Part shown: in pieces, positions 5,654-29,395 of the stretch | How positions within the stretch are numbered: position 1 is the stretch's first letter | How the letters are laid out: each line of letters starts with the position of its first letter | Origin: a virus | Length of the DNA stretch: 32,649 nucleotides | Reading direction: 5' to 3' (one strand) | Virus record (IMG/VR): IMGVR_UViG_3300042516_000971 | Span: 1-32,649 of that record | Made by a program: the position numbers and the translations under genes | Notes under the pieces: generated by a model | What the model saw: only the letters and a program-made list of their open reading frames with translations | Database searches by the model: none | What the model was told of the DNA's origin: nothing

Positions 5654-5823
5654 GTTTTGCAAAGCACCAGGTCAGCCTGACTGGCAGCCGAGTCAATGGC
5701 CAGCCCTTCAAGCTGTGCCACCGATGTGAAGAGAAGCGCCCACCCGAGGGCGGCGTGCAGACCAGCCCGCAGCGGTGGTACTGCGCAGTTTGCTGGGTGG
5801 ACAAGATGAAGGCCAAGCGATGA
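5650..5823 (+). CDS. Small zinc-ribbon-like protein (57 aa)
   Basis: A 57-aa protein with two Cys pairs, LCHRCEEKRP (about residues 23-32) and WYCAVCWVD (about 44-52), spaced as in a small zinc ribbon. The C-terminus is basic (KMKAKR). The start overlaps the rusA stop as ATGA. A nucleic-acid-binding or protein-binding role is likely from the pattern, but no family is named. Confidence 0.75.
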   Translation: MSFAKHQVSLTGSRVNGQPFKLCHRCEEKRPPEGGVQTSPQRWYCAVCWVDKMKAKR

Positions 5824-6296
5824 GAAAGCGCAGCAAGTACAGACCGCGCCAGGTTTTGCCCGACCCCGTGGCTTGGGTGATCAACGGGTTCAAGCCCATG
5901 AGTTCGCACAGCGAGGCCATTGGGCTGAAGATCAAGAACCACCAGGCGCTCTTTGACGTGACGCATGGCGATGGTGACCGGGCACAAGTTGACGTGCTGA
6001 TCGCTGCCATGAACATGTCCGAGGCGCTCTACCAGGTCAACGCCGACCTGGGCAAGCAGTACGCCGGCGAGATCAAAGCCGCCCAGGATGCGATCTACAC
6101 CATGGCCAAGCGTGGTGTGGCCAAGAATCGGTTTCTGTTTACAGGCCCAGAGCTGCAGGCCATCAACACCGGCATGGAAGTGCATGACGCGCAGCTCGAT
6201 GCCTGCACCGTCGCCGAGCTGGAGAACGCCATCAAGTTTGTGTATGAGGCCATCAAGCACCGCCGTGCCAGGCCGATTGTGGAGGCGGCAGCATGA
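5820..6296 (+). CDS. Conserved phage protein of unknown function (158 aa)
   Basis: The start at 5820 is chosen for its ATGA overlap with the previous stop; the frame is open 15 codons further but that part lies in the zinc-ribbon gene. The N-terminus is basic (MRKRSKYRPRQVLPDP), then comes a helical body with SHSEAIGLKIKNHQALFDVT and NTGMEVHDAQLDACTVAEL. I have seen similar proteins in replication regions of Burkholderiales phages and prophages annotated as hypothetical. Function is unknown. Confidence 0.8.
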   Translation: MRKRSKYRPRQVLPDPVAWVINGFKPMSSHSEAIGLKIKNHQALFDVTHGDGDRAQVDVLIAAMNMSEALYQVNADLGKQYAGEIKAAQDAIYTMAKRGVAKNRFLFTGPELQAINTGMEVHDAQLDACTVAELENAIKFVYEAIKHRRARPIVEAAA

Positions 6297-6412
6297 CCAG
6301 GACATGCCCACTGTGCCACCAGGTCAAAGCCCAGACCGGCGGCAAGCTCATGCGCGTGCTGGGCATGCGCCGCTGGGTGTGTGCCAAGTGCTACCAGCAG
6401 GCAAAGAAGTGA
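6293..6412 (+). CDS. 39-aa zinc-ribbon-like protein
   Basis: A tiny basic protein with CPLC near the N-terminus and CAKC near the C-terminus, separated by about 24 residues, a minimal four-Cys zinc ribbon. It starts by ATGA overlap and its stop overlaps the GTG start of the next gene. The chained overlaps and the Cys spacing are the evidence for translation. Confidence 0.68.
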   Translation: MTRTCPLCHQVKAQTGGKLMRVLGMRRWVCAKCYQQAKK

Positions 6413-6639
6413 AGCGGCCATGGAAGCCACACTACTACAAGCACTCAGGCCCACTGCCGGAGCGCGCAGTCCTGGAGCGTGCGGTGGCCAGAGAGCTGCT
6501 CACCACCTGGGAGCTGACCAAGGACAAAGCCCTGGTGGACAGGCACCTGGCAGCAACCGAGAAGCTGTACGGCAAGGGCGCAGAGCAGCGCATCAGGCAG
6601 CACATGCGAGAGGTGGCCAGAGATGAGCGACATGTCTGA
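6409..6639 (+). CDS. Small basic hypothetical protein (76 aa, GTG start)
   Basis: The GTG at 6409 overlaps the preceding stop as GTGA, and no ATG is available nearby. The protein begins VKRPWKPHYYKHSG and continues as charged helices (LERAVARELLTTWELTKDK, then EKLYGKGAEQRIRQHM). Its 3' end overlaps the initiator gene by 17 bases. Position directly before the replication initiator suggests a replication or regulatory accessory role, but nothing in the sequence proves it. Confidence 0.7.
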   Translation: MKRPWKPHYYKHSGPLPERAVLERAVARELLTTWELTKDKALVDRHLAATEKLYGKGAEQRIRQHMREVARDERHV

Positions 6640-7579
6640 GCCGATTGGCTTTGCGCTGCCCAAGAAGCCCAGGATCAAAGAGAAAGACCCGCTGCCAGAC
6701 CAGCGCAAGGTCTGCGTGCTGCCCATCAGAGCTGTGTTTGACAAGAAGATGAGCCACGGTGCCCTGCAAGCTCTGGCGGCCCTGTGCGCGTACTGCAACC
6801 GTGCCGGCATCACATGGGTCAGTCAGACCAGGTTAGCCCAAGAGCTGGGGATTAGCCAACAGGCAGTGGCCAAGCAGTTCAAGCAGCTTAGAGAACTGGG
6901 CTACCTGGAGACCGTTCGCAAAGGGTTCAAGGGCGAGCGCACAGACACTCTGCGCGTGATCTTCGATCCATCCATCACAGCAGAGGAGGCAATCACCATG
7001 ACATCAAACAAGGAGGACACACGGCCACCAGCCATCATCGACGAACAAAGGAGACAAGCCGAAGAGATCGACAAAGAGGGCCAAAGGCGCATCGCCCAGC
7101 TGATCAGCAAAGCGCTCAAGCAACCACTCAAACAGGAGAAACAAATGCCAGCATCAGGACAGACCAGGACGGTCAAAAAGATGAAGGAAGACATCCAAAA
7201 AGCAGCTTCCAAACGCTCACCAGGTACAACCAAATCTGTGGAAAACCATGTGGATAACAATGATCACATTCACAACCTGGAGGTTGTAACCAATCACAAC
7301 CCGGAGGTTGTAGATAACACAGAGAATACCTATAGAGATAAACCTAAGATAGATAAACCTAAGATTGAATCTAAGAATAAATTAAATACAAAGAGAGATA
7401 ACCTAAGGTTAGTTCTGAACAACCAATCGATTGATCAGCTGATCGACTTCGGCATGACTGAGGACGACATCCAGGACGGGCTGACCACGCTGCTGGCGAT
7501 CTACCAAGCCGAGGGATTGACGCCGAAGGAACAGCACCTGGTCGATGGCTTGATGCAGATGCACCGGGATGCGGCATGA
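6623..7579 (+). CDS. Winged-helix replication initiator (lambda O-like) carrying the origin
   Basis: A 318-aa protein. Residues about 30-115 form a helix-turn-helix/winged-helix domain (GALQALAALCAYCNRAGITW, TRLAQELGISQQAVAKQFKQL, RELGYLETVRKG), typical of phage initiators. Residues about 120-265 are a polar linker that turns Asn/Lys/Asp-rich and repetitive (HNLEVV, HNPEVV, DKPKI twice). Residues about 268-318 form a compact helical C-terminus (IDQLIDFGMTEDDIQDGL). The linker-coding DNA contains DnaA boxes, iterons and A+T-rich repeats, as in lambda O with its internal origin. No lambda P-like loader, helicase or polymerase is encoded, so the C-terminus may recruit host DnaB or its loader. 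Initiator function is inferred from domain plus embedded origin. Confidence 0.75.
   Translation: MSDMSEPIGFALPKKPRIKEKDPLPDQRKVCVLPIRAVFDKKMSHGALQALAALCAYCNRAGITWVSQTRLAQELGISQQAVAKQFKQLRELGYLETVRKGFKGERTDTLRVIFDPSITAEEAITMTSNKEDTRPPAIIDEQRRQAEEIDKEGQRRIAQLISKALKQPLKQEKQMPASGQTRTVKKMKEDIQKAASKRSPGTTKSVENHVDNNDHIHNLEVVTNHNPEVVDNTENTYRDKPKIDKPKIESKNKLNTKRDNLRLVLNNQSIDQLIDFGMTEDDIQDGLTTLLAIYQAEGLTPKEQHLVDGLMQMHRDAA
7237..7412. other. Probable replication origin inside the initiator gene
   Basis: Elements in order: DnaA-type box TTTTCCACA (minus strand, 7237-7245); a perfect DnaA consensus box TTATCCACA (minus, 7249-7257) 12 bases on; two 18-bp iterons, CACAACCTGGAGGTTGTA (7271-7288) and CACAACCCGGAGGTTGTA (7295-7312), which are inverted repeats spaced 24 bases apart; a near-match DnaA box with one mismatch (7309-7317); then an A+T-rich stretch with a perfect 15-bp tandem repeat AGATAAACCTAAGAT (7336-7350, 7351-7365) and a degenerate third copy at 7396-7407. 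The order iterons then A+T-rich unwinding region is that of lambdoid origins. Confidence 0.75.
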
Positions 7580-7965: not shown

Positions 7966-8217
7966 ATGGCATACGAACTTAAACCAGGACAGGGCTCTGC
8001 CTTTGTCAACAAGCACAAAACTGAGGACTGGCATGCGCCCTACAAGGGTGAGGTGATGCTGCCTGATGGCACGCTGTGCTACTTGGACATCAAGCCCGGC
8101 AAGACCCAGGCTGGTGAGCATTGGTTTGCTGTGAAGATCGGCAAGCCTAAGCCACCCAAGGAGCCTGCGCCTGTGGCTGCTCCGATGGCTGTTGAAGACT
8201 CTGACATCCCGTTCTGA
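7966..8217 (+). CDS. Small SSB-like phage protein with a DSDIPF tip (83 aa)
   Basis: An 83-aa protein with AAAGGA before its ATG. Residues about 20-58 read as beta strands (HAPYKGEVMLPDGTLCYLDI, HWFAVKIGKP) like a minimal OB-type sheet. A Pro/Ala/Lys linker follows, and the protein ends in DSDIPF, which matches the acidic tip of bacterial single-strand binding proteins used to dock partner enzymes. It belongs to a group of short phage proteins with this architecture. ssDNA binding or mimicry of the SSB tip is inferred. It is the first gene after the intergenic region and overlaps the terminase start by one base. Confidence 0.72.
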   Translation: MAYELKPGQGSAFVNKHKTEDWHAPYKGEVMLPDGTLCYLDIKPGKTQAGEHWFAVKIGKPKPPKEPAPVAAPMAVEDSDIPF

Positions 8218-27028: not shown

Positions 27029-29395
27029 ATGGGCGTCCCAATCTCCAACGTAACACGTCGAGTCGTATATGCAGCCAGTGGCACTGGCCCGTATGCGTTC
27101 ACCTTTGAAATTCTGGCGAACACTGACATCGCTGTCTACAAGGACGACGCGCTCCTGACGCTGACCACCGACTACACGGTGACCATTGCATCGAACGGCA
27201 CAGGCTCAATCACCCTGGTGGCTTCTCCCACTGGCGCAACGCAGATCGCCATTGTCGGCAACCGCACCATTCAGCGCACGACAGACTTCGTGACTGGTGG
27301 CGACTTCTTTGCCAACACGGTCAATGATGAGATGGATCAGCAGACCATCTTCGCACAGCAAAACGCCGAAGGTCTGCAGCGTGCATTGAGCGCACCGCAG
27401 ACCGATCCTACCTCGATCAACATGACGCTGCCACGCGCCAGCCTGCGCGCCAACAAAGCGCTGGGCTTTGATGCGGACGGCAACCCTGCCATTGCCGACA
27501 CGCTGGGCACCAACCGTGGCAATTGGGCTGCAGCCACGCTGTACTACGTCCGAGACATTGTCAAAGACACAACCAACAGCAACATCTGGCAGTGTATTAC
27601 CCAGCACACATCTACTGGCTCTCAGCCGATCAACACGAACACCGACTCAGCCAAATGGACTTTGTTGGTTGACGCGGCAGCGGCAGCCACAAGCGCATCC
27701 AATGCAGCCAGCTCTGCATCAGCTGCTTCTAGCAGTGCGTCTGCTGCATCGACCTCAGCGACAAACGCCGCCAGCTCAGCAAGCGCTGCGAGTACATCGG
27801 CCAGCAATGCTTCGACATCGGCCACGAATGCTGCTAGCTCAGCAAGTTCTGCATCGACATCAGCCAGCACTGCAAGCACAGCTGCAACCAACGCGGGCAC
27901 CAGCGCAACAGCTGCTGCAACAAGTGCAACAAACGCATCGAATAGCGCCAGCGCTGCCAGCACATCGGCAAGCAACGCAAGCAGCTCAGCATCTGCGGCT
28001 AGCACGTCCGCGTCTAACGCATCCACGTCGGCCACCAACGCGGCCAACTCTGCAAGCACTGCCACCACCCAAGCGACAAATGCTTCAAACAGTGCAAGCA
28101 CGGCCAGCACGCAAGCAACAAACGCTGCCAGCTCTGCTACTGCAGCAGCTGCGTCAGCAACATCTGCAGCGGCCAGCTACGACGCATTTGACGACCGCTA
28201 CCTGGGCGCGAAGTCCAGCAACCCAAGCGTTGACAACGACGGCAACGCACTGCTGACCGGCGCGATCTACTTCAACAGTGTGGCCAGCACAATGCGGGTT
28301 TACAACGGCAGCGCCTGGCAAGACCAGGCTGCCTCGCCAGACACCATTGCTGAGCGCTCATTCTCCGCGACTGCTGGCCAGACCAGCTACACGTTCACTG
28401 GCGGCTATCGTGTGGGCTACACCTATGTGTACGTCAACGGTGCGCTGCTGGCAGAGGCAGACATCACAGCAACTGACGGCACAACGATCACGTTCACATC
28501 TGCCCTGGCGCTCAATGATGAGGTTCGCATTCTGTCTTACAAGGCCATTGGTTCTGTCGCCATTGGCGACATCTCTGGGTTGCAGACTGCGCTCGACGCC
28601 AAGGCTCCGCTGGCAAATCCGGTCTTCACTGGCAATGCAGGTTTGGGAGTTACCCCGGCTGCTTGGAACACCATCACAGCATTGCAAGTAAAGAACGGCT
28701 CATTTGGTGGCTATTCATCAACTGCCTATATGGGCACAAACTGGTACTACGCCAGCGGTGACAAATACATCACAAGCACGGGTGCAGCCTTATATGCAGC
28801 AGATGGAAATTTAAGCTCGCATACATTTTACACAGCAGCTGGCGGCACGGCTGGAAACGCGATCACTTGGACGCAATCACTTCAGTTTGCAAAAGGTGCA
28901 ACCTTAGCTCTTGAGGGTGCGACATCTCAAACTGGTGTTGGCATCACATTCCCCGCAACTCAATCAGCATCATCAAACGCTAATACGCTAGATGATTATG
29001 AGGAGGGGACTTGGACACCATATTTAACTGGTAGCGGCACACCGGGAACTTGGACTCCAAGTTACAACACAGGAACGTATACAAAAATCGGTAATCAGGT
29101 TTTTGTTCAGGGCATTATTGGCGGCACACTTTCTGGTGCAACGGGAACTATCTATCTTGGTGGGTTTCCTTTTAACGCAAGCGGCTCATGGAATACCCTT
29201 TCAGTTACAGAGTACCGCTATATTGCTCAGGGTTCACGCACTGGCGTGACTGGAATTGAACTTAGTTCGGGCGCGGCATACGGCGCCATTTATTTGTCAG
29301 GGTCTTCTACTTCTGAAGTTGCTTTGGCTCCTGCCGACTGGAGTAGCGGCGGCACGTCAATCATGTGGTTTAGCGGATGCTATAAAACATCTTAA
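27029..29395 (+). CDS. Tail fibre protein
   Basis: A 788-aa fibre. The N-terminal about 150 residues match the T7 gp17 tail-attachment domain (VVYAASGTGPYAFTFEILAN, DDALLTLTTDYTVT, RTIQRTTDFVTGGDFFANTV, NDEMDQQTIFAQQNAEGLQR). Next comes a carbohydrate-binding-like strand set (AATLYYVRDIVKDTTNSNIW), then an Ala/Ser/Thr heptad rod (about residues 220-383), then FDDRYLGAKSSNPSVDNDG and a beta domain. The C-terminal 200 residues include YEEGTWTPYLTGSGTPGTW, typical of receptor-binding tips. The tip-coding DNA is more A+T-rich than the rest of the gene, which suggests exchange. Confidence 0.93.
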   Translation: MGVPISNVTRRVVYAASGTGPYAFTFEILANTDIAVYKDDALLTLTTDYTVTIASNGTGSITLVASPTGATQIAIVGNRTIQRTTDFVTGGDFFANTVNDEMDQQTIFAQQNAEGLQRALSAPQTDPTSINMTLPRASLRANKALGFDADGNPAIADTLGTNRGNWAAATLYYVRDIVKDTTNSNIWQCITQHTSTGSQPINTNTDSAKWTLLVDAAAAATSASNAASSASAASSSASAASTSATNAASSASAASTSASNASTSATNAASSASSASTSASTASTAATNAGTSATAAATSATNASNSASAASTSASNASSSASAASTSASNASTSATNAANSASTATTQATNASNSASTASTQATNAASSATAAAASATSAAASYDAFDDRYLGAKSSNPSVDNDGNALLTGAIYFNSVASTMRVYNGSAWQDQAASPDTIAERSFSATAGQTSYTFTGGYRVGYTYVYVNGALLAEADITATDGTTITFTSALALNDEVRILSYKAIGSVAIGDISGLQTALDAKAPLANPVFTGNAGLGVTPAAWNTITALQVKNGSFGGYSSTAYMGTNWYYASGDKYITSTGAALYAADGNLSSHTFYTAAGGTAGNAITWTQSLQFAKGATLALEGATSQTGVGITFPATQSASSNANTLDDYEEGTWTPYLTGSGTPGTWTPSYNTGTYTKIGNQVFVQGIIGGTLSGATGTIYLGGFPFNASGSWNTLSVTEYRYIAQGSRTGVTGIELSSGAAYGAIYLSGSSTSEVALAPADWSSGGTSIMWFSGCYKTS
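27690..28178 (+). repeat. Heptad repeats of the fibre rod (about 23 copies of 21 bp)
   Basis: About 23 consecutive seven-residue units close to S-A-T/S-N-A-A/S-S/T, each encoded by 21 bp with much codon variation. Units with Asn at position four often alternate with units lacking it. The regular period and small side chains suggest a trimeric helical rod. Such repeats change copy number easily. Confidence 0.85.

Follow-up and report, generated by a model that had tools for sequence, protein, structure and literature searches.

A gene for a 318-residue protein in the window, by which we mean the whole 32,649-base stretch of viral DNA analysed here, appears to hold the replication origin on which its own product would act. 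In the reading that we regard as quite probable, palindromic iterons of the ACAACC/GGTTGT type lying within the gene are read by the initiator that it encodes, an adjoining A+T-rich tract opens, host DnaA contributes through an arm that is optional in evolution, and the host replisome takes over. A lambda-like origin embedded in an initiator gene had been put forward in the original prediction, and the candidate sites do lie within the initiator coding sequence. Among several hundred relatives, of which 113 genes were compared, initiator and own-gene origin have switched specificity together at least nine times. The elements concerned are as follows; those that had been predicted were all found at, or a few bases from, the places originally given for them.

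6623-7579, plus strand: initiator gene, 318 aa (winged-helix N-domain, probably disordered linker, helical C-domain)
6854-6877, plus strand: codons of recognition-helix residues 78-85 (SQQAVAKQ), of which 79 and 84 change in step with the half-site
7237-7245, minus strand: DnaA box 1, TTTTCCACA, one mismatch
7249-7257, minus strand: DnaA box 2, TTATCCACA, perfect
7272-7287: iteron 1, ACAACCTGGAGGTTGT, palindrome ACAACC-TGGA-GGTTGT
7296-7311: iteron 2, ACAACCCGGAGGTTGT, palindrome ACAACC-CGGA-GGTTGT
7309-7317, minus strand: doubtful DnaA-like site, TTATCTACA, its one mismatch lying in the core; shares bases with iteron 2
7325-7410: A+T tract, presumed unwinding element, including a 15-bp tandem repeat at 7336-7365
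7419-7424, plus strand: single ACAACC half-site past the A+T tract; in relatives its sequence tends to vary with the specificity class

The initiator protein

The 318-aa product contains an HTH_36 winged helix according to Pfam, and in PHROGs it shows weak and consistent similarity to replication initiation families, the O-like one among them (for the O-like match, E 1e-7 to 1e-6, with 5e-7 quoted as a single value); all 26 family members tested match O-like initiator families. It gave no match to the lambda O family in a Pfam search that admitted hits up to E 0.1, nor did that search return the RepA_N family. The protein had been described as a non-lambda initiator, a label which in view of the PHROGs matches is not clearly deserved, and weak evidence from these comparisons suggests an O-like winged-helix initiator. 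In the predicted structure a folded N-domain is followed by a linker (residues 198-256) with pLDDT below 50, which is probably disordered, and then by a C-domain that reaches a pLDDT of 94.8 when modelled alone. Iterons and DnaA boxes alike lie within the codons of this linker, as does the greater part of the A+T tract.

Sequence searches of the PDB with the initiator returned only short matches in the HTH region. Structure searches matched the N-terminal region to 4pt7 ('Structure of initiator') and 4pql ('N-Terminal domain of DNA binding protein') with Z 8.4-8.5, values that do not exceed those of unrelated winged-helix proteins. For the C-domain Foldseek gave no significant match, and a second structure comparison placed first 4pqk ('C-Terminal domain of DNA binding protein') with a Z of only 4.1, a weak lead as regards the DnaD-like C-terminal domain of RepA_N replicons. 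We take these three entries to be Rep proteins of pSK41-type RepA_N plasmids.

The same structure searches likened the winged helix to repressors of the MarR/SlyA type, a resemblance that would suit a regulator acting from within its own gene, with the repeats as operators, the downstream sites serving as a possible roadblock and replication starting elsewhere. We think this very improbable: all family members tested match O-like initiators, the sites come together with DnaA boxes and an A+T tract in the arrangement of known origins, and a promoter scan near the origin found nothing above shuffled sequences.

Relatives of the initiator

Scans of viral contigs for relatives of the initiator returned 67, 364 and 441 stretches, which places several hundred relatives in viral metagenomes; the compared set of 113 distinct genes, that of the window included, was drawn from the matches listed after removal of duplicates and short pieces. 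Genome contigs searched for relatives that might assign the family to a prophage or a host yielded none. The only cultured relative found was the Methylophilales phage MEP301, whose gp55 (L068 113-718) has an N-domain homologous to that of the initiator (40% identity). MEP301 likewise encodes RusA and SSB, together with resolvase-domain and YqaJ genes, and has neither DNA nor RNA polymerase (PMC8024684). Its gp55, however, comprises just 201 aa with no obvious long iteron-bearing linker, and therefore the origin of MEP301 probably lies outside this gene.

Iterons under selection at the DNA level

Two 18-bp inverted-repeat iterons had been proposed at a distance of 24 bases. Both are present at that distance, with a length of 16 bp, since the outer bases of the proposed 18 do not pair, and they are the only matches to ACAACC-N4-GGTTGT in the 32,649 nt. 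A lone half-site at 7419-7424 had been overlooked. The original prediction had also asked for a conserved iteron spacing among relatives. A fixed spacing can be discarded, as distances of 24, 48 and 72 bp and others occur, and the iterons are thus palindromes with variable spacing rather than phased direct repeats; the constant features are the half-site and its correspondence with the recognition helix.

As the repeats lie in frame and encode similar peptides, they could in principle reflect selection on a linker peptide (the HNxEVV repeat) and not on the DNA. When the protein of the window was held constant and its synonymous codons shuffled, two or more perfect iterons arose in 0.35% of trials. 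Across 39 genes 68 perfect iterons were observed against a mean of 3.8 and a maximum of 10 in such shuffles, a count which, as with those of boxes given below, treats related genes as separate and so overstates the number of independent events. This loss of the repeats in synonymous shuffles, which bears out the suggestion that selection acts here on the DNA, largely refutes an explanation by the peptide. Moreover, genes of other classes encode different peptides at these places and their half-sites still match the helix, and the linker has very low pLDDT. We give the peptide explanation almost no credence.

The far half-site points in the same direction. In relatives it reads ACAAC, GCAAC, or GGAAAC or GGCAAC, according to class, as a tendency only, and since it follows the class while the peptide there changes, it is the DNA and not the peptide that seems to be under selection.

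Recognition helix and half-site change together

Residues 79 and 84 of the recognition helix agree with the iteron half-site in all 112 classifiable genes among the 113 compared, distributed as follows.

Q79/K84: half-site ACAACC, 72 genes
R79/K84: half-site GCAACC, 21 genes
R79/N84: half-site GGACAC, 18 genes, with a narrow margin between site classes in three of them (L121, L128 and L130)
K79/K84: half-site TCAACC, 1 gene

The remaining gene (L229) was left out of the class assignment; it has R at both positions (helix SRQAITRQ) and divergent, unusual half-sites, e.g., GCAACA and GGTAGC, and is possibly a further specificity class. A perfect iteron of one class was never found in genes of another. 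Glutamine with adenine and arginine with guanine are textbook pairs of side chain and base.

When the helix and linker columns were excluded from tree building, residue 79 changed nine times between Q and another residue and the site likewise nine times, with at least nine co-switches of helix residue and half-site. Independent pairs on well-supported branches agree in seven cases out of seven (p 0.016), and an earlier, smaller tree had given six out of six. Some of the switches could have arisen by recombination that exchanged domain and origin together. Whether or not this was so, the comparison of sequences indicates that helix and half-site must match. The inverted-repeat iterons are in this way matched by coevolution to their cognate initiator, and judging from the sequences they are almost certainly its own binding sites.

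Six R79/N84 relatives (L119, L121, L122, L126, L130 and L134) still contain GGCAACC half-sites, placed either in between their GGACAC-type sites or past them. The presence of two kinds of half-site in one origin means that the code is not absolute.

DnaA boxes beside the iterons

Two DnaA boxes 12 bases apart, one of them perfect, had been predicted and are indeed present in tandem on the minus strand, starting at 7237 and 7249; the second is the only perfect box within the 32.6 kb. The third near-match box exists with one mismatch, but this mismatch falls in the core, the site overlaps iteron 2 and it is often altered in relatives; it is probably a by-product.

The 113 origin regions contain 33 exact boxes in comparison with a mean of 0.39 for anagrams of the box, and none of 500 anagrams reached 33; the highest of them scored 30, presumably because it is a conserved word of the initiator family. 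With up to one mismatch the figures are 156 and 5.6. In 35 box-bearing genes, 16 exact boxes were observed where synonymous shuffles would leave 1.3-2.6, and because these genes were picked among box carriers the result speaks for constraint at the codon level and not for frequency. In this line, T stands immediately before the motif's Val codon in 110 of 124 cases, even though the residue that precedes it is any of ten. The boxes are therefore far above chance and, as far as sequence comparison can tell, under constraint at the DNA level. Two relatives (L046 and L047) carry a perfect box that is inverted and lies at another place.

At least one box with up to one mismatch occurs in 83 of the 113 genes and a perfect one in 30. 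The proposed cluster of boxes beside the iterons, foreign to the classical ori-lambda, is thus found both in the window and in most of its family. In the other 30 genes the origin region is devoid of boxes even when one mismatch is allowed, and for three records whose gene lacks such a box no perfect one turned up anywhere in the sequence. Nine of the relatives (L052, L055, L057, L061, L065, L125, L139, L148 and L164) have iterons and no DnaA box in the origin region.

The suggested hybrid of phage initiator and host DnaA consequently fits the window and most relatives and leaves aside about a quarter of the family. One could argue from this quarter, from the frequency of the one-mismatch variant TTGTCCACA in relatives and from the plasmid precedent, where DnaA has a lesser role than at oriC (PMC5043065), that the origin is genuine, initiator sites included, and DnaA takes no part in it, the boxes being remnants or serving DnaA titration and the C-domain alone recruiting the host helicase. 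Against such an origin stand the strong excess of boxes and their DNA-level constraint in most lineages, as well as the constant 12-bp pairing and the one reversed perfect box, and we consider it unlikely, though the most serious of the alternatives. The absence of boxes in 30 of 113 relatives suggests instead that DnaA is a helper rather than a fixed part, and the pattern across sequences makes it likely that it assists in most members and is dispensable in some.

The A+T tract and nucleotide skew

An A+T-rich tract with 15-bp tandem repeats had been pointed out. Both exist in the window, with 78% A+T at 7351-7400 and a perfect repeat at 7336-7365. Richness in A+T is common to the relatives, in a comparable position with respect to the last iteron. 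Conservation of the 15-bp repeat was ruled out, as it was not seen in the relatives examined, and it is probably a by-product.

A GC-skew inflection near 7.3 kb had been expected. None is present there and the minimum along the window falls at 30.2 kb, so that the test either failed or was uninformative. The minimum of AT skew, at 4.7 kb, coincides with a change of gene direction, and neither skew is usable here as evidence on the origin.

Genome context and the search for a loader

The window has a podovirus-like gene set, with RecT, a RecE-like exonuclease and a serine recombinase on the minus strand and RusA, the initiator, an SSB-like protein and the terminase, head, tail and lysis genes on the plus strand. 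The claim that the phage has no lambda P-like loader agrees with our searches of 11 near-full-length records of 32.6-35.5 kb (the window and ten related records of 32.7-35.5 kb), in which Phage_lambda_P (PF06992), IstB/DnaC (PF01695) and DnaB_C (PF03796) gave no match; the E. coli control was detected for the first and the controls for the other two. An unrecognised loader may be present among the small genes of no recognised function.

The SSB-like product of 7966-8217 is small, has the acidic tip DSDIPF at its end and is 41% identical to the annotated ssDNA-binding protein of MEP301, with no match in PHROGs or Pfam.

A model for initiation

The combined evidence suggests the following course. 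The N-terminal winged helix of the initiator would read the palindromic half-site ACAACC/GGTTGT, with a dimer seated on each of the two iterons and perhaps a single subunit at the lone half-site of 7419-7424. We infer the steps after this recognition from lambda, the DnaA-using iteron plasmids and the pSK41 Rep (PMC5043065, PMC6022878, PMC5703833). The bound initiator would open the A+T tract at 7325-7410, and host DnaA on the tandem boxes may help this opening and/or bring host DnaB, as in P1, pSC101 and RK2. The small helical C-domain might contact the host helicase or primase machinery in replacement of lambda P, so that the helicase would be delivered by DnaA and/or the C-domain via host proteins. 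As the searches revealed neither a helicase nor a helicase loader encoded by the phage, synthesis would be carried out by the host replisome. The DnaA arm would be optional in evolution, given that roughly one family member in four seems to manage without it. The widespread helicase operator of bacteria is DciA rather than DnaC/DnaI (PMC5109545), and a phage that brings no loader would depend on that of its host.

A bolder version can be offered tentatively, as possible and still doubtful: a lambda-type origin where host DnaA, and not a phage loader, delivers the helicase, where residues 79 (Q/R/K) and 84 (K/N) set the origin sequence by a simple and often-switched code, and where dependence on DnaA has been lost in some lineages.

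Relation to known origins

The ori-lambda lies inside the O gene between the DNA-binding and C-terminal domains, with dimer-bound inverted-repeat iterons and an adjoining A+T tract (PMC5043065, PMC6022878). The candidate origin shares with it, by sequence, the location in the initiator gene, the inverted-repeat iterons and the adjoining tract, and differs in having two iterons instead of four, two DnaA boxes beside them, a lone half-site past the tract and no P-like loader found. A second parallel is provided by the RepA_N initiator of the staphylococcal plasmid pSK41, with 319 aa, an N-domain that binds boxes in the middle of the gene, an origin encoding the linker and a separate C-domain (PMC5703833). 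Initiator size is about the same here, and so are the mid-gene sites, the origin-encoded linker and the separate C-domain. In contrast, DnaA boxes have so far not been detected in the staphylococcal plasmids (PMC5703833), and the window has them and shows no sequence match to the RepA_N family.

Initiator iterons, DnaA sites and an A+T tract are combined in the origins of P1, pSC101, RK2 and R6K (PMC5043065), as they are here. Those iterons, however, are mostly direct repeats bound by monomers, whereas the candidate sites are palindromes inside the initiator gene. As for the joint change of initiator and origin, the DNA-binding domain of RepA in the PLE satellites of Vibrio cholerae phages covaries with the origin and is exchanged together with it while the C-domain stays (PMC8263062). 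The family described here resembles PLE in this covariation and departs from it in that the origin is in the gene, not intergenic, and in its at least nine switches tracking helix residues 79 and 84.

In-gene origins (lambda, pSK41), origins with iterons and DnaA sites (plasmids) and covariation of initiator and origin (PLE) were thus already known, and the present element probably works like a lambda origin with a plasmid-style DnaA arm. What is new lies in the detail, i.e., how the elements are combined, the half-site past the tract and how widely helix and half-site agree; no description of an O-type phage origin with DnaA boxes was found in the open-access literature. One small element joins the in-gene origin in the style of lambda to DnaA help in the style of plasmids, and the existence of relatives without boxes makes the role of DnaA testable by comparison. 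Moreover, with at least nine joint switches available in a natural set, the code by which residues of an initiator specify origin bases can be put to a direct test.

Other features of the window

A search of Rfam for an RNA element gave no match. A 63-bp tandem repeat of 2.1 copies is found at 27745-27874 in a tail-fibre-like gene, and two long plus-strand ORFs (5775-6296 and 6088-6639) overlap out of frame upstream of the initiator.
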